Notes under the pieces: model-generated
Seen by the model: only the letters and a program-made list of their open reading frames with translations
Databases searched by the model: none
Told to the model about the DNA's origin: nothing
Shown here: piece after piece, positions 3,301-26,669 of the stretch
How positions within the stretch are numbered: position 1 is the first letter of the stretch
Layout: every line of letters starts with the position of its first letter
Translations under genes and position numbers: made by a program
Source: Candidatus Omnitrophota bacterium
GTDB taxonomy: Bacteria; Omnitrophota; Gorgyraeia; Aquiviventales; Aquiviventaceae
Assembly (NCBI GenBank): GCA_023247235.1
Contig: JAHFGW010000014.1
Coordinates: forward strand, 1 to 32,490
DNA: 32,490 nt
Direction: 5' to 3'

Positions 3301-3400
3301 TGTGTCATGTTTCATGTGTAATGTGTAATGGAAAGACAAAAGCTCTTCCGGGAAGACGGTTCTGCTTTGCCATTACACATAACACCTTACACATTACACA
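3301..3400. repeat. heptad inverted-repeat element, TGTGTAA type
   Basis: The left arm is four 7-base units: TGTGTCA, TGTTTCA, TGTGTAA, TGTGTAA (3301-3328). The right arm is CATTACA, CATAACA, CCTTACA, CATTACA (3371-3398). The arms are complementary (TGTGTAATGG pairs with CCATTACACA). The middle, about 40 bases, contains a smaller inverted repeat (CTTCC-GG-GAAG). The right arm supplies the TAA stop of tsaE at 3394-3396. The element fills most of the tsaE-tsaB gap. Confidence 0.85.
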
Positions 3401-3909
3401 GAATCGGCCGCTGTGTTTGAGTGGAGTTGGCTAATGATCTTGGTCGAGCGCGGACCCGTGCCTCGCAGCGCGATGTGGCGGCGGTTCGTGCTCACATGGT
3501 TCAAGTGCACCTGCAGCACGTCCGCAGGCAGAAGGCCTTCGAAGCGCTCGGCCCACTCAATCAGCGTAATCTTGCGCGGCGAGAAGATCAGCTCCACATC
3601 CAGCCACGCAGCCTCCTCGGCCCCGTCCAACCGGTAGCCGTCGACATGGACAAGCGGAACCGCCCCGGGATATTCGCGTTGGAGCACAAAGGTCGGACTC
3701 TTCACCACATCAGGCTGGCGGCCGCTGCCCTGCGCAATCCCCTGGATCAGGGTCGTCTTCCCGCTGCCCAGCGGACCGTACAGGGCGACCACATCGCCCG
3801 GCTCAAGCGCCGCGCCTACTTGCGCGCCCAGCGCGCGCGTCTCCCCTTCGGAGCCGCTGGTGCGCTCGTGCGATGCGATGACATCGTTCGGTGCTTTTGC
3901 TCTTGGCAT
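3394..3909 (-). CDS. tsaE: tRNA threonylcarbamoyladenosine biosynthesis ATPase TsaE
   Basis: The 171-residue P-loop ATPase has a Walker A motif GPLGSGKTT (residues 45-53). The TsaE-specific motifs SPTFVLQREY and HVDGYRLDG follow, and then LIEWAERFEGLLP. TsaE is the ATPase that cycles the TsaB-TsaD complex during t6A37 formation. The first 20 residues do not look conserved, so the true start could lie downstream of the ATG at 3909. The gene follows thiL by 2 bases. The final residues and the TAA stop come from the heptad element at 3301-3400, so the C-terminal tail (NTAADSV) has probably been altered by that element. Confidence 0.94.
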   Translation of the reverse strand: MPRAKAPNDVIASHERTSGSEGETRALGAQVGAALEPGDVVALYGPLGSGKTTLIQGIAQGSGRQPDVVKSPTFVLQREYPGAVPLVHVDGYRLDGAEEAAWLDVELIFSPRKITLIEWAERFEGLLPADVLQVHLNHVSTNRRHIALRGTGPRSTKIISQLHSNTAADSV

Positions 3910-3911
3910 GG

Positions 3912-4847
3912 TCAGAAGTGCCGAAACCCGCCCGGGGCGAGCGGCCGGACAGTCCCATCCGGTTCTTGAAGCTCGACGCGCGCGCCGCGCCCCACGACGG
4001 AGCCGATGCGCGTCAGCGGGCAGCGGCCGATGCGCCGCGGCAGGCGTTTAGCCTCGCGCGGCGGCACGGCCACCAGAAGTTCGAAATCTTCCCCGTCCGT
4101 CAGCGCGCGGTGCAGGCCCCGGCGCCCGGTGAGTCCGCGCGCGGTGGGAATGCGCGCCGCCTCCACGCGCAGGGTCGCGCGGCTGGCCCGAGCCACCTGC
4201 CACAGATCCGAGGACAGCCCGTCGGACACATCGATCATCGCGTGCACCGCGCCGCGGCGGGTCAGCCAAACAGCCTCGCGCAGGCGCGGCAGGAAGCGCG
4301 CGTGGCGTCCGCTGCGCAGCGAATTCCCAAGCCGACCCGTCACGTAGAGCTGATCGCCGATCCGCGCGCCGCGGCGCAGGGCCAGCCGCCGCCGATCGGC
4401 CACACCAAGAATCGCCACGTCCACGATGACGCAGGGGGCCCGGACCGTGTCACCTCCCACGATCGCCAGCCCGAAGCGCCGCGCGCACGCGGACAACCCG
4501 CGGTACAGCGCCTCGACAAACCGCACGGGGATGGTCCGCGGCAGGCCGAGCGAGACGACGGCCGCGCAGGGCCGCCCTCCCATGGCGGCCACGTCGCTGA
4601 CATTGCCCGCGAGCGCCTTCCATCCGATGGCGCGGGGAGACACCGACGCTCGGGTAAAGTGAACCCCCTCCACCACCATATCGCTCGCCAGCAGCAAGAC
4701 GGTGTCGCTCGCCCCGACGCCTGGCAGCGTTGGCCGCCGCAGCACGGCCGTGTCGTCCCCGATGCCAAGCACCACCAGCGGCGTCCGACCCAGGCGTCGC
4801 TTGAGACGCTCAATGAGGTTCATTTCACCAAGATCGCTGACGATCAT
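3912..4847 (-). CDS. thiL: thiamine-monophosphate kinase
   Basis: ThiL phosphorylates thiamine monophosphate to the cofactor thiamine diphosphate using ATP. The 311-residue protein starts with SDLGEMNLIERLKRR, the usual ThiL opening. It then shows GIGDDTAVL (D31, D32), SDMVVEGVHF, GWKALAGNVSDVAAMGG and the C-terminal IDVSDGLSSDLWQVA metal/nucleotide motif. These are the expected AIR-synthetase-superfamily features and the length is typical. ATG 4847 is preferred over an internal ATG at 4823 because LGE...LIER is conserved in the family; AGGTGAGG lies directly upstream. Its product would feed the ThDP-dependent enzyme encoded by ilvB further along. Confidence 0.95.
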   Translation of the reverse strand: MIVSDLGEMNLIERLKRRLGRTPLVVLGIGDDTAVLRRPTLPGVGASDTVLLLASDMVVEGVHFTRASVSPRAIGWKALAGNVSDVAAMGGRPCAAVVSLGLPRTIPVRFVEALYRGLSACARRFGLAIVGGDTVRAPCVIVDVAILGVADRRRLALRRGARIGDQLYVTGRLGNSLRSGRHARFLPRLREAVWLTRRGAVHAMIDVSDGLSSDLWQVARASRATLRVEAARIPTARGLTGRRGLHRALTDGEDFELLVAVPPREAKRLPRRIGRCPLTRIGSVVGRGARVELQEPDGTVRPLAPGGFRHF

Positions 4848-4885
4848 ACCTCACCTGAGGACCAGCCCAGACGAAAGATGCTGTC

Positions 4886-4942
4886 TGGGACATGTCCATT
4901 TTTCGCCGCAGCGATTCGATGGCGAAAAATGGACGCGTCCCA
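4886..4942. repeat. REP-like palindromic element (GGGACATGTCC/ATTTTTCG type)
   Basis: The arms 4886-4907 and 4921-4942 are 22 bases long and match as an inverted repeat with 2 mismatches, around a 13-base loop. Each arm contains its own smaller palindrome (GGACATGTCC on the left, GGACGCGTCC on the right) beside ATTTTTCGCC. The element ends 1 base before the TGA stop of the CPBP protease gene and precedes thiL. Confidence 0.85.
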
Positions 4943-4943
4943 C

Positions 4944-6026
4944 TCATCCGAGCAGCGCTCGGTACGTTAAGGCGAGCGCTAGGAGCAGGCTGTTGTGCAC
5001 CACGTGGACGGCGATCGAGCTCAGGAGGGATCCGGTCCGCTCGTACAGATCCGCCAGCAGGCAGCCCAGCACCATGATGGGCAGGAAGCCCAAGAGATTC
5101 GTATGGCTCGCGGCAAAAAGGGCGCTGCTGAGCAGCATCGCCGGCCAGCGCGATATGCGCTGCCGCAGCGCCGCGAAGAGCACCCCGCGGAAGAAGACCT
5201 CCTCCGCCACGGGCCCGCCGAGGCACGCCAGCATCGCGGTCAGGCTCAGGAGGGCCGGACGCTGTTCTCCAAAAATCATCTGATGGATCGGCTCAACCGG
5301 CGGCTGAAGCTTCAGCACCTCGGCTAATTGCACCACGAGCGTCAACAACAGCAGCAGCCACGGGAACAGCGCGACGTAGCTGCCTAATCCCGTGGCGATC
5401 GCCTGGCCCGCGCGCCGCAGGCTCAGGCCGACCGCGCGCAGGGGCACCGAGGTCTTGCCCGCCGCGAACGCCAAGATCGTCATCACCAACATGACCTGCA
5501 GGCCCAGCGTCGACAGGTTGGTCCACAAGTTGCCGTCCAGCCACCAGCCGGGCCAGAGGATGATCAAGGCCAGCCGGGTGAACTGCAGCAGCGTGGCGAT
5601 CAGGACCATGAGCAGCGCAATGCGGAAAAACTCCCCCAGGGTCCACGGCGGCGGCCGGCGAAACGGCCCCTGCCACACGGCCTTGATGCGCCCGCTGGCC
5701 ACGGCCCACAGCGTCAAGCCGATCCCCCCGAAGATCAGGCCGGTCATGATCAGGCCGAGCAACAGGATGAGCGCCTGCACCGCCGGTGAGGCCTGCGTGA
5801 CGGCCCGCAGCAGGTCGGCGTCCCGCTCGTGCATCCACCACTGGTCCGTGAGCCGGGGCTGCCCTTCCATCGCGACGTGGGACGGCACCCACGGGCCCAT
5901 CTGCGCGCCCCGAGCATAGGCGAAGAGCGCCACCACGACGCCCACCAGCCCGACGTACAGCGCCCAGCCGCGGAGCCATCGCTGGACCACGTTGCGCGTG
6001 CGGCTCGGTCGTCGTGCAACGCTCAT
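4944..6026 (-). CDS. CPBP-family intramembrane glutamic endopeptidase
   Basis: The 360-residue integral membrane protein has about eight hydrophobic segments. The CPBP (CAAX protease and bacteriocin-processing, ABI) signature lies in the C-terminal part: EEVFFRGVLF (E275, E276, R280), then SHTN (H308) and HVVHN (H344, N345). These supply the glutamates and histidines known as catalytic in the Rce1/CPBP family. The N-terminal half, which includes a TM segment and a roughly 60-residue extracytoplasmic stretch, is poorly conserved. The gene overlaps the end of metG by 4 bases (ATGA). Its substrate is unknown, and no bacteriocin-like peptide gene is nearby. Confidence 0.88.
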   Translation of the reverse strand: MSVARRPSRTRNVVQRWLRGWALYVGLVGVVVALFAYARGAQMGPWVPSHVAMEGQPRLTDQWWMHERDADLLRAVTQASPAVQALILLLGLIMTGLIFGGIGLTLWAVASGRIKAVWQGPFRRPPPWTLGEFFRIALLMVLIATLLQFTRLALIILWPGWWLDGNLWTNLSTLGLQVMLVMTILAFAAGKTSVPLRAVGLSLRRAGQAIATGLGSYVALFPWLLLLLTLVVQLAEVLKLQPPVEPIHQMIFGEQRPALLSLTAMLACLGGPVAEEVFFRGVLFAALRQRISRWPAMLLSSALFAASHTNLLGFLPIMVLGCLLADLYERTGSLLSSIAVHVVHNSLLLALALTYRALLG

Positions 6027-7618
6027 GATGCCTTCTTCGGAAACAAGACGCTCGGTCGGCCGATCGGTTGATCCGTCTCCAGCCCGGGCCAGCGGCCCGC
6101 ATCCGCCAGGCGGCGGGGACGCTCCCCGCAGCCAAGCTGGCGCCAGATCTCTTGAGCCACGGCCGGCATAAAGGGTTCCAGGACGATGGCCACGATGCGC
6201 AGGACCTCGCCCAACGTCCCCAGGACCTGGGAGAGCGTCTGCGTGTCGCCAGCCTTGGCCAGCTTCCAGGGCGCCGAAGACTCCACGTATTGGTTGGCTT
6301 GAGCCACCACGCGCATGATCGACTCCAGGGCTGCGGAAAATTCCAGGCGATCCATAGCCGCTGACACCGCCTCCGCCAACCGCATGGCGGCCTGCGCCAG
6401 TGGCTGGCCGTGCGGCCCGGCCGGCGGGATCGTCCCGCGATGATAGCCGGTGATCATGGAGAGCGTGCGGTTCACCAGATTGCCGAGGTCATTCGCCAAA
6501 TCCGCATTGAGCCGCGTGACCAGCGCCTCCTCGGAGAAATGCCCGTCCTGGCCGAAGGGGATCTCGCGCAGCAGGAAGTAGCGGTAGATGTCGGCGGCGA
6601 AGGGCTGCCCTTGCAAGAGCTGGCCGATGACGGCGGTCGGATCGACGATATTGCCAAGCGACTTCGACATCTTCTGCTCACCCACTTTCCACCAGCCGTG
6701 CGCGAACACCATGCGCGGCATCTCCTCCACCTGCAGGGCATGGAGCATGATGGGCCAATAGACCGCGTGGTGGCGCAGGATGTCCTTGCCGATGAAGTGG
6801 ACATCGGCCGGCCAGAGCTGGGCGAAACGCGCCGGATCCTCGACGTAGCCGGGCACCGTGATGTAGTTCAGCAGCGCGTCGAACCACACATAGACCACGT
6901 GCTCCGGGCTGAACGGCACCGGGATGCCCCAGTCCACGCGCTGGCGCGGCCGCGTGATGCAGAGCGCTTCAGGCAGCGGCCGCTCCAGCAATGCCAGCAA
7001 TTCATTGCGCCGGGTGGCCGGTTGCACGAAGGCTTCATGAGTTTCCACGTATCGCTTGAGCCACGGCTGGGAGGCCCGCAGGGGAAGCATCCAGCCGTCT
7101 TCGCTGACGGACTCCAGCGGCCGCTGGCAGGCCGGGCACAGCGGCGCCCGGGTGCCGGCGGGGCGCCCGCCCCGCCCCTCCGGTCCCGAGGGGCGGGGCT
7201 CGCCTAATTCGGCTTCGGTCCAGAAGGTTTCCTCCGGCGTGCAATACCAGCCCTGGTAACGAGCGCGCGTGAGCTGGCCGGCCGCATGGAGCTTGGTCAC
7301 AATGGCCTGCACCGCCTGCTGGTGGCGCGGTTGCGTCGTGCGGATGAACTCATCGTGCGAAATCTCCAGCAGCGTCCATAAGGACGCGAACTGCTCAACC
7401 GCGCGATCGGCGAACGCCTGGGGACTCAGGCCCGCCGTCTGGGCGGCCTGCTGGATTTTCTGCCCGTGCTCATCGGTGCCGGTCAGCAGGAACACGGAGC
7501 GGCCCGCCAGCCGGTGATAGCGCGCCAAGCAATCAGCGGCAATGGTCGTGTAGGAATGCCCGAGATGCGGCGCCGCATTCACGTAATACAGGGGCGTCGT
7601 CAGATATATCGTCTTCAT
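6023..7618 (-). CDS. metG: methionine-tRNA ligase
   Basis: This class I synthetase (531 residues) charges tRNA-Met. The start at ATG 7618 gives MKTIYLTTPLYYVNAAPHLG, with the HIGH-type motif PHLGH; the KMSKS motif is intact in [11 protein letters not shown]. An open frame continues upstream to 8125 but runs antiparallel through holB in another frame and is not protein-like. The connective peptide has only part of the zinc knuckle (YCTPEE, then CPAC). Between them lies an odd EPRPSGPEGRGGRPAG stretch (residues about 140-150) encoded by a perfect GC hairpin. There is no C-terminal tRNA-binding (EMAP) domain, so this is the short form. It follows holB across a heptad repeat and overlaps the CPBP protease gene. 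Confidence 0.96.
   Translation of the reverse strand: MKTIYLTTPLYYVNAAPHLGHSYTTIAADCLARYHRLAGRSVFLLTGTDEHGQKIQQAAQTAGLSPQAFADRAVEQFASLWTLLEISHDEFIRTTQPRHQQAVQAIVTKLHAAGQLTRARYQGWYCTPEETFWTEAELGEPRPSGPEGRGGRPAGTRAPLCPACQRPLESVSEDGWMLPLRASQPWLKRYVETHEAFVQPATRRNELLALLERPLPEALCITRPRQRVDWGIPVPFSPEHVVYVWFDALLNYITVPGYVEDPARFAQLWPADVHFIGKDILRHHAVYWPIMLHALQVEEMPRMVFAHGWWKVGEQKMSKSLGNIVDPTAVIGQLLQGQPFAADIYRYFLLREIPFGQDGHFSEEALVTRLNADLANDLGNLVNRTLSMITGYHRGTIPPAGPHGQPLAQAAMRLAEAVSAAMDRLEFSAALESIMRVVAQANQYVESSAPWKLAKAGDTQTLSQVLGTLGEVLRIVAIVLEPFMPAVAQEIWRQLGCGERPRRLADAGRWPGLETDQPIGRPSVLFPKKAS
7169..7199. repeat. GC-rich hairpin inserted in metG
   Basis: GCCCCGCCCCT (7169-7179) and AGGGGCGGGGC (7189-7199) form a perfect 11-base stem around a 9-base loop. 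It is wholly inside the metG reading frame and encodes a Pro/Gly/Arg-rich segment in the connective-peptide zinc region. It has the same GCCCCGCCCC core as the two palindromes in secA. Confidence 0.8.
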
Positions 7619-7627
7619 GGGCGACTG

Positions 7628-7710
7628 TGGAATGTTGAATGCGTAATGCGTAAGGTGCCTTTGCGTATCCGCACTGTGAACATTACGCCTTACGCATTCC
7701 ACATTACGCA
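7628..7710. repeat. heptad inverted-repeat element, CGTAATG type
   Basis: The left arm has units TGGAATG, TTGAATG, CGTAATG, CGTAAGG (7628-7655). The right arm has CATTACG, CCTTACG, CATTCCA, CATTACG (7681-7708). Read in reverse complement, the right-arm units are the same set as the left in a different order. The loop is about 25 bases. The right arm supplies the TAA stop of holB (7704-7706), and the left arm ends 10 bases upstream of the metG ATG, leaving no Shine-Dalgarno sequence there. Confidence 0.85.
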
Positions 7711-8669
7711 GCCATGAGCGACAACCATCGTTCTCTTGCCAGGGCTGCCGCCAAGCGGGGGTTGACGAACTGATCGAGCGAATCGCGCAGCGCAGCCAGG
7801 TCCAACGCGGTCTGCACGCAGCGCGCCGGAGCCACCTGCGACGCGGCTCGCCGCACCGGAGCCTCGAACCGCTGATGCACCAGGCTCGTCGTGGGTCCGG
7901 TGGCCGCAGCGGCCACGTCCCGCAACCAGGCGACCATGCCATCAAGCAGGCGCTCCACGCCCTGACGCGTGTCGGGTAGCTCACTCTCAAACCACTGGGT
8001 CCACTGTTCGCTGGCCAAGAGCGCCATGAGTTGTTCATAGCCCGCCCAGTCTTCCCCCAGCTCCAGGGCGCGCGCCGCGCTGCCGCCGGCCAGGTGCGCA
8101 ACCGCCGCAGCCGCTTCCGGGTCAACGTGGTTCGCGCGCAGGATGCGCTCGAGCGCCTCCGGAGCCAGCGGATGCGCGCGAATGAGCTGGCACCGCGAGA
8201 CGATGGTGGGCAAGCAGCGAGCCAAGGCCTCGGTCAGCAAGACAAATCGCGCGTGCGCCGGCGGCTCCTCCAGCGATTTCAGCAGGCTATTGGCCGCTTC
8301 GTCGGTCAAGCGATGGGCGCCGTCGACGATCACCGCTTGGTAGCGGCCGCTGAAGGGCCGCAGCGCAATGCGGCCCAGGACCTCGCGCACCGCTTCAAGC
8401 CGAATGAAGCCGGAGGATCCCTCGGCCTGCAGCCAATGCACGTCCGGATGCGTCCGGCGGCCGACCTGCCCGCAGGGCGCGCACCGATCGCATGGAGGCG
8501 GCTCCGGGGACACGCATTGGAGCGCCTTGGCCAGCTCCTGCGCCAGCAGCCGCTTGCCCACGCCCGCCGGCCCCACGACCAGGTACGCGTTGGCCACGGT
8601 CCCGGCCGCCAGATGAGCCTGCCAAATCTGCTTGGCGAACGCCTGCCCTTCAATGTCGTGCCAACTCAT
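7704..8669 (-). CDS. holB: DNA polymerase III, delta' subunit
   Basis: The 321-residue clamp-loader AAA+ protein has a P-loop GPAGVGKRLLAQELAKAL. A zinc module with four cysteines (C...CDRCAPCG) follows, then HPDVHWLQAEGS and the segment DGAHRLTDEAANSLLKSLEEPP, which is typical of DnaX/HolB proteins. An SRC sensor-1 type motif (PTIVSRCQLI) is present. The delta' subunit works in the complex that loads the beta clamp. ATG 8669 overlaps the tmk stop (ATGA) and starts SWHDIEGQ; the longer open frame upstream lacks family similarity. tmk-holB adjacency is common in bacteria. The stop codon is provided by the heptad repeat at 7628-7710, leaving a C-terminus LSLMAA. Confidence 0.93.
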   Translation of the reverse strand: MSWHDIEGQAFAKQIWQAHLAAGTVANAYLVVGPAGVGKRLLAQELAKALQCVSPEPPPCDRCAPCGQVGRRTHPDVHWLQAEGSSGFIRLEAVREVLGRIALRPFSGRYQAVIVDGAHRLTDEAANSLLKSLEEPPAHARFVLLTEALARCLPTIVSRCQLIRAHPLAPEALERILRANHVDPEAAAAVAHLAGGSAARALELGEDWAGYEQLMALLASEQWTQWFESELPDTRQGVERLLDGMVAWLRDVAAAATGPTTSLVHQRFEAPVRRAASQVAPARCVQTALDLAALRDSLDQFVNPRLAAALARERWLSLMAA

Positions 8670-9301: not shown

Positions 9302-10743
9302 CCTGCGCGACGCCACAGGGTTCCCCCTGCGGTGTCCGTGAGCAAATACCCATCGCGTCGCAGTGCCTCGCGGATCTCATCGGCCCGCGCGAAGTGCTTC
9401 GCCTGACGGGCGGCGTCCCGCTCGCGGATCCGCGCCTGGACCTGCTGTTGAACCTCCAAGGGTTCTTCGCTCACGCCCTGGCGGAACAAGCCTAAGACGC
9501 CCCCGCACTCAACCAGGACTTCGCAGACGCTTCGGGCGCCCACACGTCCTTCTGGAGCGTTCGACTCCAATAACCGATGTCCCGCGTTCACCAGATCAAA
9601 CAGCACGGCCAGGGCCTGGGGGGTGTTCAAGTCATCGCCCATCGCCTGGTCAAAGACGCCGCGGGCCGTGACGGCCTCAGCGGCCGCGGCGCCTGCAGGT
9701 CCGCTGTCAGCTTTGCGCTGGTCGTAGTGCTGAAAGAACCGCGAAAACTCTTCCCAATTCTTCTTGGCTTCCGCCATCTTCTCGGTCGAGTAGTCGATGG
9801 GCGATCGGTAGTGCGTCTTCAGGAAGAAGAGCTTGAGATAGTCGGGGTGCGGATACGCGCGCAAGACGTCCTCCACGCTGATCCAATTCCCCAAGGACTT
9901 CGACATCTTCTCCCCGTTGACCGTCAGCAACCCGTTGTGGATCCACCAGCGCGCGAACGGCTTGCCCAGCGTCTGGGCCTGGGCGATTTCGTTCTCATGG
10001 TGCGGGAAGACCAGGTCGACGCCGCCGCCGTGGATGTCAAACGCGTCACCGAGCAGCTTCGCGCTCATCGCCGAGCATTCGATGTGCCAACCCGGTCGCC
10101 CTAAACCCCATGGGCTGCTCCAGGATGGCTCCTGCGGCTTTGCGGCCTTCCAGAGCGCAAAATCCAGCGGATCCCGCTTGCGCTCCCCGGGCTCCACGCG
10201 CGCCCCGACCTGCAGCTCATCCACCGTGCGATTGGAGAGCCGCCCATAGCCCGGAAACTTCCGCACGGCGAAGTAGACGTCCCCGCCCGCCTCGTAGGCC
10301 GCGCCATTGATCAGGAGCTGCGCGATGCCATCCGTCATGTCCGGCACGACATGCTCCGTCGCGCGCGGCTCGTGCGTCGGCGAGCCGATCCCCAGTTGTG
10401 CGAGTGTGTTGTGGTAGGCTTCGAGGTACCGCTCGCTGATCTGACGGCAGGCCGTCTTCAGATCCCTCGCCCCCTGCCCCTCGCCCCCTGCCCCTGTCTC
10501 TTCACGCGCCCGCTCAATAATCTTGTCATCGACATCCGTGACGTTGCGCACGAACAGCACCTGGAAGCCACGGGACTCCAGGGCGCGCCGCAGCACATCA
10601 AAGCTGTAAGCGCTGCGGACATGGCCCAGATGCGGGACGTCGTAGACGGTCGGCCCGCACACATAGACGCCCACGCGGGGAGGCGACAGCGGCGCGAACG
10701 GCTCAACCGAGCGGGTCAGCGTATTGTAGAGACGGAGGGTCAC
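9298..10743 (-). CDS. cysS: cysteine-tRNA ligase
   Basis: The 481-residue class I synthetase has the opening [13 protein letters not shown], the HIGH-type motif in [15 protein letters not shown] with zinc ligand C29, [10 protein letters not shown], the histidine pair HHENEIAQ, and KMSKS in [10 protein letters not shown]. The start codon is GTG at 10743, in a GTGA overlap with the cysE stop. Between KIIERAREE and SERYLEAYH the protein carries about 13 extra residues including [12 protein letters not shown]. They are encoded by four tandem 7-base units at 10467-10494, and most CysS proteins lack this segment. The neighbour cysE makes the cysteine precursor O-acetylserine, so supply and use of cysteine are encoded together. 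Confidence 0.96.
10467..10494. repeat. one-armed heptad tandem repeat inside cysS
   Basis: Four adjacent 7-base units, TCGCCCC, CTGCCCC, TCGCCCC, CTGCCCC, make a perfect duplicated 14-mer. No complementary arm is visible nearby, so this may be a remnant of a two-armed element. It encodes residues 84-93 of CysS and keeps the frame. Confidence 0.75.
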
Positions 10744-11465: not shown

Positions 11466-12025
11466 TACCTGACCCGCTTTCTGGCCGCTCGTAGCTCGTG
11501 GCTCGTGGCTCGTGGATGCGCTCGGCCTTTGCCTCGAGCCTCCGGCCTCGAGCCTCGAGCGCTCTCCAGCAGCACAATGGCCTGCGCCGCGACGCCGAGG
11601 CCCTTGGGTTCAAACCCTTCCGTCGTCTTGGCTTTGACCGAGACCGCCGAATCCGCCAGCCCCAGCAATCGCCCGATGGAGCGGCGCATCCGGGCTTTAT
11701 AGGGCCCCAGCTTCGGCGCATCCGCGATGACGGTCGCATCGACGTTGCCCACGGCCAGGCCCAGGCGCCGCACGCGGCTCAGCGCCGCCCGGACGAAGAG
11801 ACGGCTGTCGGCCCCGCGGGTGCGCGCGTCTCCGGGCGGGAACAGCTCGCCTAAGTCCGGCGCGCCGGCAGCGCCCAGCAGCGCATCGGCGATGGCATGC
11901 AGCAGGACGTCGGCATCGGAATGCCCGGCCAGCCCCCGCCCGAACGGCACCGTGATGCCGCCGAGCTTCAGCGGCCTGCGGCCGTTGAACCTATGAATGT
12001 CATACCCTATTCCGATTCTCATCAT
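11465..12025 (-). CDS. ispF: 2-C-methyl-D-erythritol 2,4-cyclodiphosphate synthase with repeat-derived C-terminal extension
   Basis: IspF cyclises CDP-methylerythritol 2-phosphate in the MEP isoprenoid pathway. The family signature is clear: [32 protein letters not shown] with metal-binding D and H residues, [10 protein letters not shown]-like [10 protein letters not shown], and [22 protein letters not shown] normal IspF ends here, near residue 156. This protein continues for about 30 residues ([20 protein letters not shown] and on) encoded by the heptad inverted repeat at 11487-11563, giving 186 residues in total. The tail is unlikely to be needed for catalysis. Two adjacent ATG codons (12025 and 12022) could start the gene. 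It follows ispD by 6 bases. Confidence 0.95.
11487..11563. repeat. heptad inverted-repeat element, GCTCGTG type, in the 3' end of ispF
   Basis: The left arm is GCTCGTA followed by three GCTCGTG units (11487-11514). After a short loop the right arm is CCTCGAG, CCTCCGG, CCTCGAG, CCTCGAG (11532-11559). The right arm in reverse complement (CTCGAGG) differs from the left unit (CTCGTGG) at one base, so the arms pair imperfectly. The copy is translated as the C-terminal tail of IspF. Confidence 0.85.
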
Positions 12026-12031
12026 GTGCGC

Positions 12032-12763: not shown

Positions 12764-12800
12764 GACCGTTTCCGCTGCCACAGCCGACCTCCCTGGCTCG

Positions 12801-13820: not shown

Positions 13821-13882
13821 GACCGCTCACCTCATAATGGATAAAAAGGCTGCACCGCCTGGCTCCCTAAGCCCAATATTTT

Positions 13883-13888
13883 ATTGTA
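13883..13888 (-). promoter_or_regulatory. possible -10 box for the PIN/TRAM-ispD-ispF group
   Basis: TACAAT on the minus strand, in an AT-rich patch (GTACAATAAAATATT) that stands out from the GC-rich surroundings. No good -35 match is visible 17 bases upstream, where the end of a GC-rich hairpin lies. Transcription from here would give a leader of about 55 bases ending in a good ribosome site. Confidence 0.35.
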
Positions 13889-13900
13889 CCGCAAAACCAT

Positions 13901-13924: not shown

Positions 13925-13953
13925 GCAAGGGAGCTCTCGCCACCTTCCGGCCT

Positions 13954-16109: not shown

Positions 16110-16136
16110 GCTCCTCGTCGCTCAGCTTGCTCCGGT

Positions 16137-17746: not shown

Positions 17747-17763
17747 CGTGAGCGGTGCCTACT

Positions 17764-17818
17764 GGTGCCTGGCACCTTTTTCGAAAAAGCTACCAATTCG
17801 AACAAGGTGCCAGGCGCC
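17764..17818. repeat. REP-like palindromic element (GGTGCCTGGCACC/TTTTTCG type) between clpC and mlaE
   Basis: Arms 17764-17785 and 17797-17818 are 22-base inverted repeats with 2 mismatches. Each arm holds a near-palindrome (GGTGCCTGGCACC, and GGTGCCAGGCGCC on the right) next to a TTTTTCGAA-like stretch. The element begins 7 bases past the clpC stop. An extra partial copy (GGTGCC) lies just left of it. The same core is found in the lolD copy at 23786-23848. Confidence 0.85.
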
Positions 17819-17825
17819 GCATGCG

Positions 17826-20276: not shown

Positions 20277-20295
20277 GGTCCGCTCCTCGTGCGTA

Positions 20296-20373
20296 GCTCG
20301 TGGCTCGTGGCTCGTGGCTCGTGGCGACCAACGCTCTGGTCTTTCCCTCGAGCCTCCAGCCTCCAGCCTCGAG
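20296..20373. repeat. heptad inverted-repeat element, GCTCGTG type, between mcsB and clpC
   Basis: The left arm is four exact GCTCGTG units (20296-20323). The right arm is CCTCGAG, CCTCCAG, CCTCCAG, CCTCGAG (20346-20373). The centre is about 22 bases. The element starts 5 bases after the mcsB stop codon and ends close to the clpC ribosome site. Confidence 0.85.
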
Positions 20374-20378
20374 CGCTT

Positions 20379-21440
20379 TCATGATGAACTGCCGAGTCGT
20401 GTGCGAATGAGTTGCGCGCGCTTGGTGTCGCGCTCCTGCGCGGAAAGCCGCTTGCCCTCTAGCTTCTGCAGGTGGGCCGGCTGCGAAAAGAGGAACAGCT
20501 CGTTGACCGTCGTGCGGTCCAGCCCGTTCATGAGCTTCAGATCGACGCCCAGGCGCACCGCCGAGAGCAAATCGAGCGTCTCGCCGGAGCTCATCGTCTT
20601 GGCATGTCGGAGAATGCCGAACGCCCGCCAGATCCGATCTTCCAGCTCCGTGCGGTTGTTCTTCAGCAGGGATTCCCGCGCGTTCTGTTCGTGCTCCAGG
20701 ACCTGCTTGAGGATGCGCGCCAGGTTCTCCGTCAGCTCCTCCTCCACGCGCCCCAGCGACACCTGGTTGGAAATCTGAAAAAAGTTGCCGGAGGCTTCCG
20801 TGCCCTCCCCGAACAAGCCGCGCGCGGTCAGCCCCAGCTTCGTGATGGCATGCAGGACCTTGTTGATCTGCTTGGTGATGACTAGCGATGGCAAGTGCAC
20901 CATGACGGAGGCGCGCAGGCCCGTGCCGGTGTTCGTCGGGCAGCAGGTCAGGTAGCCCCAGTCGCTGGAGTAGGCATAGGAGACGTGGGCGGACAGTTCG
21001 TCATCCAGCGCATCCATCAGCGTCCAGGCCTGCTGGAGGCTGAAGCCGGATTGCATGACTTGCAGCCTCAGGTGGTCCTCTTCGTTGATCATCACGCTGA
21101 ACACCTCATCCGGGCTGATGACCACCGCCTTCTGCTTGGGCTGGACAATGTGCTCGCGGCTGACCAGGTGCCGCTCGACGAGAAACTGGCGGTCGACTTC
21201 GTCGAGCTCGCCCAGGTCCACGACGAGCCCGTCTTTCAGCATGGCGGTCTGCCGCAACCCCTCCGTGGCCTCGCGCAGCACGTCCTGCATCGTCTGCTCG
21301 GTCGCGCGAGAGGAAAACGGCAGCTTCTGCAGGTTTCGCGCCAAGCGGATGCGGCTGGAGATGACGATCTCCGAGAGCGGCCCGGAGCCGCGCAACCATT
21401 CGCTCGGTCGATTCAGGAGCGCGTCGAGATGTTTGGCCAT
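20379..21440 (-). CDS. mcsB: protein arginine kinase McsB
   Basis: McsB phosphorylates arginine residues of proteins, which marks them for ClpCP. The 353-residue protein has the guanido-kinase fold features SSRIRLARNL, the catalytic-loop NEEDHLRLQ, a cysteine in YLTCCPTNTGTGLRAS, and GEGTEASGNFFQISNQVSLG. The allosteric phosphoarginine-binding motif RDxxRA is present near the C-terminus (RDTKRAQLIR). All the residues expected for activity appear intact. ATG 21440 overlaps the mcsA stop as TGATG. It works with McsA, its activator, encoded directly upstream. Confidence 0.96.
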   Translation of the reverse strand: MAKHLDALLNRPSEWLRGSGPLSEIVISSRIRLARNLQKLPFSSRATEQTMQDVLREATEGLRQTAMLKDGLVVDLGELDEVDRQFLVERHLVSREHIVQPKQKAVVISPDEVFSVMINEEDHLRLQVMQSGFSLQQAWTLMDALDDELSAHVSYAYSSDWGYLTCCPTNTGTGLRASVMVHLPSLVITKQINKVLHAITKLGLTARGLFGEGTEASGNFFQISNQVSLGRVEEELTENLARILKQVLEHEQNARESLLKNNRTELEDRIWRAFGILRHAKTMSSGETLDLLSAVRLGVDLKLMNGLDRTTVNELFLFSQPAHLQKLEGKRLSAQERDTKRAQLIRTRLGSSS

Positions 21441-21961
21441 CACGATGGTTTCCGGGGCTTGCTCGGCGGCGGTTCCGGCTGCTCGATCTGGCGGATCACA
21501 TCGCGCAGACGGGCCGCCTCCTCAAACTCTTCCACTTCGATTGCGCGCTCGAGCTTGCGCCGCAACTCCATGAGCTCAGTTTTCACCTTGGCCGGTTTGG
21601 CCAGGCGCGTGGGCGACTTGCCCACGTGGTGCGTGGAACCATGGATGCGCTTGAGCAGAGTCCCCACGCTTCGCTTGAACGTCGTGTAGCATTCCGAGCA
21701 GCCCAGGCGGCCGACCTTGCGGAACTCCTCGTAGGTCATCCCGCAGGTGGCGCAGGCTTCCTGGACGCCTTCCTCCGGCTCCGGCGCCTTGCCACCCTCG
21801 GCCAGGCCCCCGAGCAGCTCGGAGAGCCCGAAATGGCTCTCCATCTGCGTGCCCTTCTGGTTCGCGCAGGCCTCGCAGAGATGGAGCTCCGCCATCTGCT
21901 CGTTGACGATCTCGGTCAGATGCACGGTCGCTTGGGCTTCCTTGCACAGCTCGCACAGCAT
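21440..21961 (-). CDS. mcsA: McsB activator protein McsA (UVR-domain zinc protein)
   Basis: The 173-residue protein has four CxxC pairs forming zinc sites: MLCELCKEAQATVHLTEIVN, CEACANQ, CATCGMTYEEFRKVG and CSECYTTF. A C-terminal UVR motif follows (LERAIEVEEFEEAARLRDVI). This is the standard McsA layout. McsA binds and activates McsB. The ATG at 21961 is chosen because GAGG sits 6 bases upstream and the family begins at MLC; an in-frame TTG 12 bases upstream would overlap that site. A TTGACA at 21992-21997 on the minus strand could be a -35 box, but a good -10 box is not visible, so a promoter here is uncertain. Confidence 0.94.
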   Translation of the reverse strand: MLCELCKEAQATVHLTEIVNEQMAELHLCEACANQKGTQMESHFGLSELLGGLAEGGKAPEPEEGVQEACATCGMTYEEFRKVGRLGCSECYTTFKRSVGTLLKRIHGSTHHVGKSPTRLAKPAKVKTELMELRRKLERAIEVEEFEEAARLRDVIRQIEQPEPPPSKPRKPS

Positions 21962-21967
21962 TGTCGT

Positions 21968-21971
21968 CCTC
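21968..21971 (-). promoter_or_regulatory. ribosome binding site deciding the mcsA start
   Basis: GAGG on the minus strand with 6 bases to the ATG at 21961. It overlaps the codon after an alternative TTG start, so it supports the shorter protein. Confidence 0.6.
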
Positions 21972-22031
21972 AAGAATCAGTCTACCAGGTTTGTCAATCC
22001 CACGCCAGGCGTCTGCCCAGGAGACTCAGGA

Positions 22032-22116
22032 TTAGCGTATCGCGCTCAGCGTATAGCGTTTAGGAGCACCGCGCTGTCTATACGCTATCCGCTATACGCT
22101 CAACGCGATACGCTAA
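22032..22116. repeat. heptad inverted-repeat element, AGCGTAT type
   Basis: The left arm units are TTAGCGT, ATCGCGC, TCAGCGT, ATAGCGT, TTAGGAG (22032-22066). The right arm units are TATACGC, TATCCGC, TATACGC, TCAACGC, GATACGC (22079-22113). The outer 28 bases of the two arms match as an inverted repeat at about 25 positions. The loop is 12 bases. The outer end of the right arm (TTAGCGTATCG on the minus strand) supplies the TAG stop of the aminotransferase gene at 22113. Confidence 0.85.
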
Positions 22117-22979
22117 TACCTGATTCCTTCCGTCTTCGTCAGGCGGTGGAAGGCCTGCTGGAGCCGTTTCGTCACCGGGCCCGGCTTGCCGGCGCCGATC
22201 TCGCGCCCGTCGATCTTCACCACCGGCACGATCTCCGCGGCGGTGCCGGTCAGGAAGCATTCCTCGGCGTTGTACAGGTCATGACGGGTGAGCAGCTCCT
22301 CGCGGACCGTCAGGCGCTGGCGGGCTGCCAATCCCATGACGGTCGCGCGGGTAATGCCGCGCAGGACGCCGATGTAGGGCGGCGGCGTCAGCAGCTGCCG
22401 GTCCCTCACGATGAACAGGTTTTCACCGGTCGCCTCCGTGACATAGCCGGAAGCCGACAGCAAGATGGCCTCATCAAAACCCGCGTTGATCGCCTCAAGC
22501 TTCGCCAAGATGTTGTTGAGGTAGTTCAGCGACTTGATCTGCGGGTTCAGCGCCTCCGGGACATTGCGCTGCGTCGCCACGGTCACCAACGTCAACCCCT
22601 CGGCATACAGCTGCTTCGGGTAGAGCTCGATGCGGTCCGCGATGACAAACACGGACGGCCGCGCGCACTTGCGCGGATCCAGCCCCAAGTCTCCCTCTCC
22701 GCGGGTCACGACCAAGCGGATGTAGGCGTCACGCAGCTTGTTGGTGCGGACCGTCTGCTTCACGGTGTCGGCCAGCTCCGCGCGGCTCATCGGAATCTTG
22801 AGCATGATGGTGTGGGCCGATTCGTACAGGCGGCTGATGTGCTCCGCGAGCTTGAAGATCCGCCCATCGTAGGAGCGAATACCCTCGAAGACGCCGTCGC
22901 CATACAGCAGCCCGTGGTCGAACACGGACAGCACGGCCTTCGACCGCTCCACGAATCGCCCGTTCAGATAGACTTTCAT
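22113..22979 (-). CDS. ilvE: branched-chain amino acid aminotransferase (class IV)
   Basis: This 288-residue PLP enzyme of fold type IV has VYLNGRFV, FDHGLLYGDGVFEGIRSYDG, RLVVTRGEGDLGLD, the PLP lysine in KSLNYLNNILAK, and EATGENLFIV followed by YIGVLRGITRATV. These fit the short bacterial BCAT group, which transaminates branched-chain 2-oxo acids. D-amino-acid and aminodeoxychorismate enzymes share the fold, so substrate is not certain. A BCAT fits with ilvB elsewhere in the window. ATG 22979 is preceded by an excellent GAGGAGG site 5 bases away; an upstream in-frame start at 23024 is rejected. The stop codon comes from the heptad repeat at 22032-22116. Confidence 0.88.
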   Translation of the reverse strand: MKVYLNGRFVERSKAVLSVFDHGLLYGDGVFEGIRSYDGRIFKLAEHISRLYESAHTIMLKIPMSRAELADTVKQTVRTNKLRDAYIRLVVTRGEGDLGLDPRKCARPSVFVIADRIELYPKQLYAEGLTLVTVATQRNVPEALNPQIKSLNYLNNILAKLEAINAGFDEAILLSASGYVTEATGENLFIVRDRQLLTPPPYIGVLRGITRATVMGLAARQRLTVREELLTRHDLYNAEECFLTGTAAEIVPVVKIDGREIGAGKPGPVTKRLQQAFHRLTKTEGIRY

Positions 22980-22984
22980 CCAAT

Positions 22985-22991
22985 CCTCCTC
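22985..22991 (-). promoter_or_regulatory. ribosome binding site deciding the ilvE start
   Basis: GAGGAGG on the minus strand, 5 bases before the ATG at 22979. It is one of the strongest Shine-Dalgarno sequences in the window and fixes this start over the longer frame. Confidence 0.8.
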
Positions 22992-23014
22992 ATCTGCACA
23001 GCCAGCCTTGAGGC

Positions 23015-23075
23015 GTGGGGACACTGCTATTTTTCGCCGCGGTCATCCGACCGCGAAAAATAGAAGCGTCCCCCA
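23015..23075. repeat. REP-like palindromic element (GGGGAC/TATTTTTCGC type) between lolD and ilvE
   Basis: The left arm begins GTGGGGACACTGCTATTTTT and the right arm is its near mirror (AAAAATAGAAGCGTCCCCC followed by AC). The centre carries a second small inverted repeat (CCGCGGT...ACCGCG). It begins 17 bases after the lolD stop. It belongs to the same group as the elements at 4886-4942 and 28310-28363, although its palindromic core is degenerate (GGACACTGCT). Confidence 0.8.
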
Positions 23076-23091
23076 CTGTGCTCCCAAAACG

Positions 23092-23862
23092 TCAAGAAGA
23101 AGTCTCACCAACGATGCGCCCATCCCGCAAGACGATTTGACGAGTCGCGCGCTTGGCCAGCGAGACGTCGTGCGTGGCCAGGATCAGGCCCACGCGCTGG
23201 CGCTCCTGCACCTGCCACAACAACTCCATCACGGCTCCGCCGGTGGCGGAATCGAGATTGCCGGTGGGCTCATCGCACAGCAACACCGCCGGACGGTTGA
23301 CCAGCGCCCGCGCGATCGCCACGCGCTGCTGTTCGCCTCCCGACAACTGGCTCGGCCGGTGGGCCAGGCGCGCGCCGAGGCGCACCGCCTCCAGGCATTC
23401 CAAGGCCTGCGCTCGCACCGCCTTGCGGTCGGGCCGCCCGTTCACCAGCCCAGCGAGCATGACATTTTCCAGCGCCGACAGCTCCGGCACCAAGTGATAG
23501 AACTGGAACACAATGCCGATCATGCGGTGGCGCCATCGGCTCCGCTCCGCATCGCTCCACCGGGCAATCGGCTGCCCTTCCCATCGAATCTGACCTGTCG
23601 TCGGCGTATCGAGCCCGGCCAACAGGTGCAGCAGCGTCGATTTGCCCGACCCTGAGGGGCCGGTCACAGCGAGAAACGCGCCTGGCTCGCATCGCAGGCT
23701 CACGCCGCGCAGCACCGGCAGGCTCACCGCGCCCATCCGGTAGGTCTTCTCCACCTCATGCGCCTCGATGAGCGGCGCCTCGCGGGCGGTGCCTGGCACC
23801 TTTTTCGTCATCGAGGGGAACGGCTGCGAAAAAGGTGCCTGGCACCGCTCACGGTCATTCAT
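23092..23862 (-). CDS. lolD: lipoprotein-releasing ABC transporter ATPase LolD with repeat-derived N-terminus
   Basis: The ATPase has Walker A GPSGSGKSTLLHLLAGLD, the Q-loop FQFYHLVPELSALENVMLAGL, the signature LSGGEQQRVAIARALVNRP and Walker B VLLCDEPTGNLD, the usual LolD/MacB pattern. It should power release of outer-membrane lipoproteins with LolC. ATG 23862 overlaps the end of lolC (ATGAATGA) and fits coupled translation. Residues about 5-26 (ERCQAPFSQPFPSMTKKVPG and on) are encoded by a GGTGCCTGGCACC element, and normal LolD sequence begins near EAHEVEKTYRMG. An internal ATG at 23811, in the loop of the element, would give a shorter protein but has no ribosome site. Confidence 0.92.
   Translation of the reverse strand: MNDRERCQAPFSQPFPSMTKKVPGTAREAPLIEAHEVEKTYRMGAVSLPVLRGVSLRCEPGAFLAVTGPSGSGKSTLLHLLAGLDTPTTGQIRWEGQPIARWSDAERSRWRHRMIGIVFQFYHLVPELSALENVMLAGLVNGRPDRKAVRAQALECLEAVRLGARLAHRPSQLSGGEQQRVAIARALVNRPAVLLCDEPTGNLDSATGGAVMELLWQVQERQRVGLILATHDVSLAKRATRQIVLRDGRIVGETSS
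23786..23848. repeat. REP-like palindromic element (GGTGCCTGGCACC/TTTTTCG type) in the 5' end of lolD
   Basis: Arms 23786-23807 and 23827-23848 are 22-base inverted repeats differing only at the central base of the GGTGCC-T-GGCACC palindrome. The loop is 19 bases. It starts 14 bases inside the lolD reading frame and keeps it open, so it is translated. Confidence 0.88.
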
Positions 23863-25066
23863 ACCGCAGCGCTTCGACAGGGATCAAGCGCGCGGCGCGG
23901 AACGCGGCATAGGTGCCGGCCAGCACCGCCAGCCCGAAGGCGGCCGTGACGACCGCGATGACATCCGAGGAGTTGATCTGCGTCGGCAAATAGTCCAGGT
24001 AATAAATGTCCGCTGGAAAGAGCGCCACCCCGAAGGTCCGTTCAATCCAGTGCATTAGGTTCGTCAGATTCAGCGTCAGCGCCAGGCCGCCGGCCAGGCC
24101 CAGCCCGATGCCCAGGAGCCCCACCAGGCAGCCCTGGGCCAGGAACAGCCGCGCGACCGAGCCCTGCGTGGCGCCCAAGGCGCGCAGGATGCCGATCTCG
24201 CGGGTCTTTTCCATGACGATCATCGTCAGCATCGAGGTGATGTTGAGCGCCGCCACCAGGACAATCAGCGTGGCGATCACGAACATCACGATTTTCTCGA
24301 CGCGCAGCGCCCCGAACAGCGCGGGATTGAGCTCCATCCAGGTCTTGACCGTATAGCGGGGACCTAGCCGCGCGCGGGCCGCTTCCTGGACCGCGTTGGA
24401 GTGCTCCAGCGCATCAAGCCGCAGGCTCACGCCATGCACCCGATCCTTCAGCTGGTAGACCTGCTCGGCCCGGCGCAGGTGCATGACGACCAGGAACGCA
24501 TCGCTCTCGTACATGCCGGAGCGGAACATCCCGCTGATCGTCAGCTCATGCGCGCGGCCATCTACCGGGCTGATCAGGACAAGACGATCGCCAGGTCCTG
24601 CCCGCAGAAAGAGGCTCAGTTGGGTGCCGATCAGGGCCTGCCGGTCGTCAGTCGGCAGTGTCCCGGCCAGCAGGTAGGTGTGGAGCCGGGTGACCTCCGG
24701 CTCGTGCTCCGGGTCAATGCCCCGCACCAAGACGCCCAGCGGCTGCTCCGGCGTACGCACCACCGCTTGGCCGGTGATGAACGGGCTCACCCCGACGACA
24801 TGCTCCAGGCTGCGCAGTTGCTGCGAGAGCGAAGCCACCTCCGCTTCCGGGATGCCCTCCGGGCTGGTCACCAGCAGGTGGGCATTGACGCCCACGAATT
24901 TCTCGGTGTAGTCATGGCGAAACCCGGTCATCACCGCCAGGATGGTGATGAGCGCGGCCACGCCCAGCGCCACGCCGCCGATCGACAGGACCGCGCTGAT
25001 GGAGATGAACCGCTCGCGATGTTTCGCGAAGAGGTACCGCAGTGCCAGCCACAATTCGTATCGCAT
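23855..25066 (-). CDS. lolC: lipoprotein-releasing ABC transporter permease LolC/LolE
   Basis: The 403-residue permease starts RYELWLALRYLFAKHRERFI, the conserved LolC/E opening before the first membrane helix (ISAVLSIGGVALGVAALITIL). A large periplasmic domain follows, then three C-terminal helices with EKTREIGILRALGATQGSVARLF. LolC/E extracts outer-membrane lipoproteins from the inner membrane. Only one permease gene is present, so a homodimer is likely, as in many non-enterobacterial diderms. ATG 25066 is chosen for family similarity; a longer frame starting at 25156 would translate a heptad repeat (ARGSRLEVRG...) and is less likely. The stop overlaps the lolD start. Confidence 0.94.
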   Translation of the reverse strand: MRYELWLALRYLFAKHRERFISISAVLSIGGVALGVAALITILAVMTGFRHDYTEKFVGVNAHLLVTSPEGIPEAEVASLSQQLRSLEHVVGVSPFITGQAVVRTPEQPLGVLVRGIDPEHEPEVTRLHTYLLAGTLPTDDRQALIGTQLSLFLRAGPGDRLVLISPVDGRAHELTISGMFRSGMYESDAFLVVMHLRRAEQVYQLKDRVHGVSLRLDALEHSNAVQEAARARLGPRYTVKTWMELNPALFGALRVEKIVMFVIATLIVLVAALNITSMLTMIVMEKTREIGILRALGATQGSVARLFLAQGCLVGLLGIGLGLAGGLALTLNLTNLMHWIERTFGVALFPADIYYLDYLPTQINSSDVIAVVTAAFGLAVLAGTYAAFRAARLIPVEALRYE

Positions 25067-25073
25067 CAGAAGA

Positions 25074-25154
25074 CGCTCGTGGCTCGTGGCTCGTGGCTCG
25101 TGGCCTGCGACCTTTCGGCTCTTCCCTCGAACCTCGAGCCTCGAACCTCGAGCC
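25074..25154. repeat. heptad inverted-repeat element, GCTCGTG type, between lysS and lolC
   Basis: The left arm has four GCTCGTG units and the right arm alternates CCTCGAA and CCTCGAG. These 81 bases are identical to those inside lysS at 25330-25410. The element lies 24 bases after the lysS stop and 7 bases before the lolC ATG. Confidence 0.9.
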
Positions 25155-25178
25155 AAGGGACTGGAATGGTACGCGCTG

Positions 25179-26669
25179 TCATTCTGGCTTGAGCAGGGGA
25201 AATAAAATCACGTCCTTAATCGAGGGCTGATTGAGCAGCAGCATCGCCAGCCGGTCGATGCCCACGCCCAGCCCGCCGGCCGGCGGCATGCCATACTCAA
25301 GGGCTTCGAGAAAGCCTTCGTCGATCTGCCGCTCGTGGCTCGTGGCTCGTGGCTCGTGGCCTGCGACCTTTCGGCTCTTCCCTCGAACCTCGAGCCTCGA
25401 ACCTCGAGCCGCGTCTAATTGCGCCTCAAACCTCCGGCGCTGCTCGATCGGATCATTGAGCTCCGAGTAGGCGTTGGCGACCTCCATGCCGCCGATGAAC
25501 AGCTCAAAGCGCTCCGCGATGGCCGGGTGATCCGGCCGGCTCTTGGCCAGCGGCGAGAGCTCCGTCCAGTAGTCCAGAACAAAGAGCGGCTTCGTGCTCT
25601 GCTTCGGCTCGAAGAGCTGCTCGACGAGCCGGGTGAGCTGCGAGCGATTCAACCCTTTCACGGTCATGCCGCGGCGAGTCAGGACGTCCTGCATGTCCTT
25701 GAGGCTTGCCGTCGGCGACAGCCCCATCTCCTGGAGCGTCTTGGCGAAAGACACCTCCCCCCACGGCGGCGTCACATCGATGGGCTGCCCGCGAAACTCA
25801 AACTGCAGCGACCCGACGACCGTTCGGGCCGCCTCCGTGATCAGCTCTTGCACCAGCTCCATCATCCCCCGATAGTCCTGATAGGCGGCGTAGGCTTCGA
25901 GCATCGTGAATTCGGGGTTGTGCTGCGTTGAGAGCCCCTCGTTGCGAAAGGACCGGTTGAGCTCATAGACACGCTCCAACCCTCCGACCAGTAATTGCTT
26001 CAGGTGCAGCTCCGGCGCCAGGCGCAGCGACAGGTCCAGATCGAGCGCGTCATGGTGCGTGCGAAACGGCTCGCCAGCCGCCCCTCCGGGGATGGCGTGC
26101 ATCATCGGCGTCTCGACCTCGAGAAACCCGCGCCGGTCCAGCGTCTGGCGCAGGCTCTGCAGCAGCCGGCCGCGCTGCACGAACGCTTGGCGGACCGGCT
26201 CGTTGGCGATCAAGTCCAGATACCGTTGCCGGTAGCGCACCGCGATGTCCTTCAGGCCGTGCCACTTCTCCGGCAGCGGCCGCAGCGCTTTGGCGAGCAG
26301 CGTGAAGCGCTCGACTTCGACGGTCAGCTCCCCTGTCTTGGTCTTGAAGAGCGCGCCCTCAACTCCGAGGATATCTCCGAGGTCCAGCTTCTCAAAGAGC
26401 GCGTAGGCCGCTTCACCGAGCCGCTCGCGGCGGATGCAGATCTGCACTTTGCCGGTGGCATCCCGCAGGTCCGCGAAGGTGAGGCCGCCGTGGCCTCGCT
26501 TGGCGCTCAGGCGCCCGGCAGTGGTCACCGCCTGCCCCTCGCGGCCTTCAGCCACGAGCGCGCCCAAGGGGGTGGCTTTCGGAAAGCTCCCCCCATAGGG
26601 CATGATGCGCTGCTGGCGCAGCGCCTCTAGTTTATCTCGACGGTTCTCCGTCTCGCTGGGCTGCTGCAT
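25179..26669 (-). CDS. lysS: lysine-tRNA ligase (class II) with in-frame repeat insertion
   Basis: The 496-residue class II synthetase has an N-terminal OB-fold anticodon-binding domain (VTTAGRLSAKRGHGGLTFAD). Motif 1 (RQRYLDLIANEPVRQAFVQR), motif 2 (YELNRSFRNEGLSTQHNPEF) and motif 3 (GGLGVGIDRLAMLL) are all present. Between the conserved RRRFEAQLDA and IDEGFLEALEYGMPP the protein carries 27 extra residues (about 420-447: ARGSRLEVRGKSRKVAGHEP and on) encoded by the 81-base repeat at 25330-25410. That loop joins two conserved elements and is of variable length in LysS, so the enzyme may tolerate it. A TATAAT box 18 bases upstream suggests its own promoter and a short leader; no Shine-Dalgarno sequence is seen. 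Confidence 0.96.
   Translation of the reverse strand: MQQPSETENRRDKLEALRQQRIMPYGGSFPKATPLGALVAEGREGQAVTTAGRLSAKRGHGGLTFADLRDATGKVQICIRRERLGEAAYALFEKLDLGDILGVEGALFKTKTGELTVEVERFTLLAKALRPLPEKWHGLKDIAVRYRQRYLDLIANEPVRQAFVQRGRLLQSLRQTLDRRGFLEVETPMMHAIPGGAAGEPFRTHHDALDLDLSLRLAPELHLKQLLVGGLERVYELNRSFRNEGLSTQHNPEFTMLEAYAAYQDYRGMMELVQELITEAARTVVGSLQFEFRGQPIDVTPPWGEVSFAKTLQEMGLSPTASLKDMQDVLTRRGMTVKGLNRSQLTRLVEQLFEPKQSTKPLFVLDYWTELSPLAKSRPDHPAIAERFELFIGGMEVANAYSELNDPIEQRRRFEAQLDAARGSRLEVRGKSRKVAGHEPRATSHERQIDEGFLEALEYGMPPAGGLGVGIDRLAMLLLNQPSIKDVILFPLLKPE
25330..25410. repeat. heptad inverted-repeat element, GCTCGTG type, inside lysS
   Basis: The sequence is identical over 81 bases to 25074-25154, which lies 256 bases away. 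It contains four GCTCGTG units, a spacer, and four CTCGAA/CTCGAG-type units. Its length is exactly 27 codons and it has no stop in the lysS frame, so it lengthens LysS without disrupting it. Confidence 0.92.

Follow-up and report, generated by a model that had tools for sequence, protein, structure and literature searches.

The stretch considered here is a window of 32,490 nucleotides, positions 1 to 32,490 of contig JAHFGW010000014.1 (C14) of a Candidatus Omnitrophota bacterium, and it carries clpC, mcsB and mcsA, metG and holB, cysS, ispF, lolC and lysS, with small elements between and within these genes whose arms are built of tandem 7-base units (heptads), mostly as two inverted arms around a loop. 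The host genome is 1.34 Mb in 46 contigs and 91% complete, and its McsB homologues come from loci named Candidatus Omnitrophota, in line with its phylum; genes were called by simple open reading frame (ORF) rules, and the names lnt, rluD and valS used below come from sequence reading or from a match to a solved structure. An earlier note had listed eight such elements, and all eight are present (Table 1), as recovered in three ways: Tandem Repeats Finder returned the period-7 arms, an inverted-repeat search returned pairs at 3297/3360, 7625/7680 and 22031/22085 among others, and direct reading of the letters confirmed the elements at 11487, 20296, 25075 and 25331. An Rfam search of the window gave no match to any known RNA.

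Table 1. Heptad-armed elements of the window
Positions	Arms and units	Strand	Location	Further detail
3297..3404	two-armed, TGTGTAA units	.	gap between two minus-strand ORFs; overlaps 3' end of ORF 3394-3909	loop entry TGGAAAGAC
7625..7711	two-armed, TGCGTAA/TGTGGAA units	.	metG-holB gap; overlaps holB stop	
10464..10496	single arm	.	in frame within cysS	14-bp unit CCCTCGCCCCCTGC, two heptads in alternation
11486..11561	two-armed, GCTCGTG arm and GCTCGAG arm	.	encodes most of IspF C-terminal extension	
20296..20374	two-armed, GCTCGTG/GCTCGAG	.	fills clpC-mcsB gap	loop similar to that of distant copy L039:13888
22031..22117	two-armed, AGCGTAT units	.	between mcsA and next ORF	
25075..25154	two-armed	.	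lolC-lysS gap	identical to 25331-25410, loop included
25331..25410	two-armed	.	in frame within lysS, about residues 420-447	

A whole element measures about 60-110 bp, with arms mostly of four units (28-34 bp) and a loop of 3 to 54 nt. Four-unit arms number 51 of 65 in valS of the family, 50 of 76 in named relatives, 39 of 54 in lysS of the family and 37 of 63 in the host genome, the named-relative and family loci coming partly from the same genomes and so not being independent. The earlier note had taken one arm to be the reverse complement of the other; the inversion stands and the exactness does not, as the arms are usually similar only. In the GCTCG type, the commonest of the host genome, every pair examined (27 of 27) sets a GCTCGTG arm against a GCTCGAG arm, so that each unit has one mismatch, and this constant pairing of a T-arm with an A-arm implies that the arms travel or are kept together. 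The A-arm is itself a free mix of GCTCGAG, GCTGGAG and GTTCGAG, and position-specific inheritance of these variants in the host genome was not significant (p=0.18). Further unit types there include TGTGTAA/TGCGTAA, AGCGTAT, GTTCATT, GCGGAGT and GGGGCAG, while one relative (L055) holds about nine types within 8.4 kb. When folded, many elements form 6-bp steps with a single mismatch per unit between them. The motif GG(G/C)AA follows the inner end of an arm at 24 of 100 ends, against 4.5 from permuted loops, and it does so in several unit types, which is evidence for a shared history or a shared mechanism.

Three finer rules of construction were tried and set aside. A strict unit of four fixed and three variable positions is a weak tendency only; strong base-for-base pairing between arms was rejected, as in-register identity barely exceeds that of unit-permuted arms (0.800 vs 0.788; 0.785 vs 0.766) in a test where two of three sets overlap in genomes; and the comparison of within-arm with between-arm identity had opposite signs in two data sets and was not used. 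Variants of the architecture were also seen. AT-rich relatives (L086, L108, L126 and L127) carry longer elements whose period-7 outer arms (TAAATCC, AGCGCAA, CAAANNN) run on inwards into A-rich imperfect stems. Genome G016 has a single arm of about four GACAAGC/ACAAGCG units in both lysS and valS (L218, L144), suggesting a purely single-armed type, and at valS site 1 of G013 (L212) the left heptad arm contains a further inverted repeat (CCCCGGCCCGACCCATGCCGGGGCGGGC).

The number seven is specific. Counting tandem-similarity runs by one rule at each period from 4 to 14, the window gives eight runs above threshold at period 7, eight at its multiple 14 and none at periods 4-6 and 8-13. The same rule applied to the window plus 40 further stretches of the host genome (652,102 bp, about half of it) gives, once 16 runs due to N are removed, 70 runs at period 7, 45 at period 14 and 0-2 at each of the others. 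In naming beforehand what would refute it, the earlier note had tied its reading to a genome-wide abundance above that of shuffled sequence, and since dinucleotide shuffles of the host sequence gave no period-7 run against the 70 observed, that reading was not refuted. At a laxer threshold the host sequence has 103 period-7 arms, of which 76 are accompanied by an inverted partner no more than 60 bp away, compared with 0 of 7 in shuffles; periods 5, 6, 8 and 9 yield at most one. Beyond the host, 1.17 Mb around mcsB in 80 named genomes holds 76 period-7 runs and at most ten of any other period except 14, certain genomes being full of elements and many having none. A pattern of four GCT-spaced heptads, which misses units lacking GCT and whose mirrored control also picks up real units, occurs at least once in 45 of 79 genomes, the count per genome ranging from 0 to 164.

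The elements are copied, they occupy intergenic gaps and in-frame permissive loops of proteins, and they are inherited within a genus. Copying, which the earlier note had proposed, is plainest at 25075 and 25331, where 80 bp including the loop are identical and the flanks differ. Four in-frame elements lie in valS, on another contig of the host genome, and at all four insert positions the aligned Thermus valyl-tRNA synthetase of known structure (1gax) has a gap or a shorter loop; such elements add inserts of about 20-25 residues to essential enzymes. In relatives a given site may hold an element, hold one of another unit type, or hold none. Orthologous genes from more than 20 related genera have the same loops either empty or holding elements of unrelated heptads, and at exactly the same site in lysS of the family there are two-armed elements of GCTCAAG, GTTCAAG, GGGGCAG or GGTGAGA-type units in several genomes, a single arm in two (GTACAAG, ACAAGCG) and nothing in five. 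In valS the family has four further sites with unrelated heptads or none; across genera, site 1 carries GCTCGAG, GTTCCGG, GGCGAAG, GGGACAG, GGTCAAG, GGGGCAG, GTTCAAG or AGTGGTC elements and is empty in seven genomes. The proposal of a single architecture with many unit sequences is thus borne out genome-wide, as a period-7-specific feature, and in relatives, where matching sites carry unrelated units.

Two pairs of congeners were compared. G002 and G024, with 83% identical valS, differ in that G002 has GACAGG-type elements at three sites and G024 has none, so that orthologous junctions with and without an element, which the earlier note had suggested aligning, exist in this pair as they do in family lysS and valS. 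What separates the two at site 4 is one clean 33-bp arm with no target duplication. G019 and G041, which are about 85% identical, keep the same type at three valS sites, while lnt, a gene named from its sequence with no family search, has between aligned flanks a GTTCCGG element in one of them and, at the same position, an AGTGGCG element in the other; either a whole cassette was replaced, or two insertions occurred independently at one point. At lysS and at valS site 4 there are hints that arms were inserted on either side of a host loop, but this is not general, because one intergenic element has a loop identical to that in lysS and another distant pair has similar loops. G044 and G099 were dismissed as a donor pair, with few elements in the stretches sampled and one single-arm in-frame insert in a rluD-like gene. 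At valS site 3 of G002 (L208) an in-frame GTACCGGGTACTT...AAGTACCCGGTACTT palindrome sits where other genera have heptad elements, so one permissive loop is used by a different kind of palindrome. Separately, about 0.9 kb between lysS and lolC of G041 (L131) is missing from G019; the first ORF in this segment looks like that of a small nucleotidyltransferase and may belong to an MNT/HEPN toxin-antitoxin pair.

Another possibility is that the elements are selectively maintained, either as inverted arrays of regulator binding sites or as RNA hairpins that regulate mRNA. The fixed number of units agrees with such a role, as do conserved cores with variable positions, weakly, and predicted folds are stable, 11 of 12 elements having z of about -2.5 to -8. 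We nevertheless consider it unlikely, given that neighbouring elements in a single genome have different units, as do elements occupying one site in congeners, and that insertions fall within essential enzymes. Selection at the RNA level in particular was ruled against, the sense strand not being the better-pairing one (GU 23 vs AC 40).

The main rival to mobility is that the arms are made in place, by replication slippage of the host and hairpin template switching at small inverted repeats that were already there, with no dedicated enzyme, and are then homogenised and dispersed by ectopic gene conversion. Several observations fit it: the 33-bp single arm beside host-like sequence at valS site 4 of G002, the free combination of three unit variants with no position preference in A-arms of the host genome, loops that are unrelated between distant copies, and the existence of single arms and of partly host-like loops. 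Slippage should however give a broad range of unit numbers, yet four dominates, and it should not be restricted to period 7 to the exclusion of 5, 6, 8 and 9. An identical unit repeated at dozens of unlinked sites, a loop-entry motif that crosses unit types, and the identity of 25075 and 25331 as whole elements also count against it, and on balance we regard this explanation as doubtful, if the most serious of the alternatives.

If the elements move, a mover is to be sought, and the earlier note had proposed that a Y1 transposase or a reverse transcriptase might track the repeats. No such gene was found to do so. Y1 transposase (PF01797), reverse transcriptase (PF00078, RVT_1) and IS110 (PF02371) were undetected in the window genome (G000) and in G016, both rich in elements; these genomes are 91% and 93% complete, with 7-9% missing, which makes the negatives strong but not final. 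A RAYT/Y1 (TnpA-REP) transposase acting in trans, the mechanism proposed for the REP and REPIN hairpins, would suit hairpins with no visible target duplication, and over 79 Omnitrophota genomes the pattern count correlates with the number of Y1 genes (Spearman 0.41). REP-like palindromes also occur in the window, as a second family at 4886-4942, 17764-17818, 23017-23073, 23781-23853 and 28302-28371 with the sequences GGTGCCTGGCACC...TTTTTCG and GGGACATGTCC...TTTTTCG, in a genome where the Y1 gene is undetected. Set against this are the two element-rich genomes in which no Y1 was detected, a class-wide presence/absence comparison that is not significant (26/31 vs 16/25, p=0.12), and a family in which Y1 is found in 11 of 16 element-bearing and 5 of 7 element-free genomes (p=1) and so does not track the elements; this route is accordingly improbable. 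Addition of heptads by a reverse transcriptase or telomerase-like polymerase would supply a 7-nt step independent of sequence, but RVT_1 is undetected in the same two genomes and its Spearman correlation with the pattern count is 0.07 over the 79, making it the least probable of the explanations weighed here.

Tolerance of the elements is a separate matter. The SbcCD nuclease of E. coli cuts hairpins, and no SbcD scored over the family cut-off in the 79 Omnitrophota genomes, a control search giving hits in 13 of 14 named genomes; the phylum may lack this hairpin nuclease altogether, and its absence may let hairpin elements persist.

We propose that the elements are small non-autonomous mobile DNA cassettes, consisting of two inverted four-unit arms around a loop of 4-50 nt that often opens with GG(G/C)AA, and moved as folded hairpins, and we put the probability of this model at about one half. 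It draws on the period-7 specificity and inverted pairing in excess of shuffles, on the four-unit mode, the identical 80-bp copy with different flanks and the invariant arm pairing of the GCTCG type, on the loops of lysS and valS that are empty or hold unrelated heptads, including those filled in G002 and empty in G024, on the change of type at one exact position in lnt, the loop-entry motif common to several types and the valS inserts at gaps of 1gax, and on the absence of SbcD over the cut-off. Transfer would take place during DNA uptake or at replication forks, with the cassette folded as a single-stranded hairpin, and would depend on an enzyme responding to folded geometry more than to sequence. 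Such an enzyme would explain both how units change while period, arm length and symmetry are kept and how an occupied site is taken over by another type. With no SbcD, part of the hairpin-cutting nuclease, detected, the cassettes would persist more easily. Hairpin cassettes of the integron attC kind, whose folded single strand is recognised by the integron integrase, offer a comparison of working principle only; tyrosine recombinases are, to our knowledge, universal. Tentatively, and with less confidence than in the cassettes themselves, we suggest an undescribed, sequence-indifferent machinery of Omnitrophota, perhaps of many phyla, that would use the 7-nt pitch and the four-unit arms to recognise hairpins or to build them, place them in gaps and protein loops, and swap heptad types at occupied sites, in which case geometry, and not sequence, would define this mobile element.

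Several points weigh against the cassette model. No mobilising gene is identified, no target-site duplication was seen at the junctions inspected by eye, including those of G002/G024, and a parent element with a transposase was not found. Single arms are common, most loops of distant copies are unlike one another, and the single arm beside host-like sequence at valS site 4 of G002 indicates that arms may be gained singly. Replacement is indistinguishable from independent re-filling of a favoured site. Loss of SbcD was rejected as the cause of the patchy distribution, which it cannot explain because the absence is uniform across genomes, and it is permissive at most.

Parts of this picture have precedents, and the earlier note's suggestion that no inverted-arm version had been described does not hold as a general claim. 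The P6b stem-loop of the Nostoc trnL (tRNA-Leu UAA) intron is built of Class I (TDNGATT) or Class II (NNTGAGT) heptads, two unrelated classes giving the same fold, with repeated replacement of the class over the whole region (PMC4476775). The Omnitrophota elements share with it the inverted arms of 7-nt motifs and the replacement of a whole type at a fixed site, and differ in having dozens of sites per genome rather than one site in one intron, many unit types, insertions in protein-coding loops and a home in another phylum; their sites are intergenic or protein-coding and not in a group I intron P6b stem of tRNA-Leu. Geobacter metallireducens has class 3 sites of five tandem MTYCTGA heptads drawn as pairs, as well as GGGACCG x4 elements, interpreted as regulator sites or regulatory RNAs (PMC2700814). 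These too are dispersed tandem heptads, some paired on opposite strands, within and between genes, but each class has one unit, and the text consulted makes no comparison of orthologous sites.

Direct arrays are the more familiar form. Heptameric simple repeats (GGGNATC in Xanthomonas, GGGGA(C/T)T in Nostoc) prefer four units (PMC4692102), and Beggiatoaceae carry TAACTGA arrays that have been given a regulator-site or regulatory-RNA reading (PMC4679880). Like the short tandem repeats (STRR) and other heptameric repeats, the elements described here are scattered head-to-tail 7-nt units that exceed other periods, with the four-unit preference of Xanthomonas and Nostoc; STRR-type repeats are direct arrays of essentially one unit family per genome with no inverted second arm as a rule, unlike the Omnitrophota arms, most of which have an inverted partner. 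Being short dispersed hairpins, the elements also resemble REP and REPIN sequences, which are defined by a conserved sequence carrying GTAG/CGTC tags and are linked to a Y1 transposase (PMC3116915, PMC3733652). Neither is seen here, although for the tag this rests on reading through the listed units and flanks, no separate motif scan having been run. In being small, non-autonomous and dispersed with terminal inverted repeats, they have the features of miniature inverted-repeat transposable elements (MITEs). The Rickettsia palindromic element (RPE) is a 105-146 bp family with its own sequence, whose mobility was inferred with no mover known and for which the text consulted reports no 7-nt period; RPE and other bacterial MITEs are likewise small hairpin inserts, intergenic and in frame in conserved protein genes (PMC2229807), and the same habit is found here in lysS, valS, cysS and ispF.

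The heptamers of cyanobacteria, Xanthomonas, Geobacter and Beggiatoaceae have been reported piecemeal, leaving the number seven unexplained, and we found no paper in the open-licence literature that unites these systems or reports the exchange of types at orthologous protein sites. As pitch, arm length and symmetry persist at orthologous positions despite the change of sequence, the question of what sets seven and four becomes testable, and inserts such as the four in one valyl-tRNA synthetase make visible a route from selfish DNA to protein loops. Inverted heptad arms are not unprecedented, resembling Nostoc P6b and the paired sites of Geobacter, just as the in-frame habit resembles that of RPE; what is new in Omnitrophota is the scale, the many unit types within one genome and the exchange of types at fixed sites.

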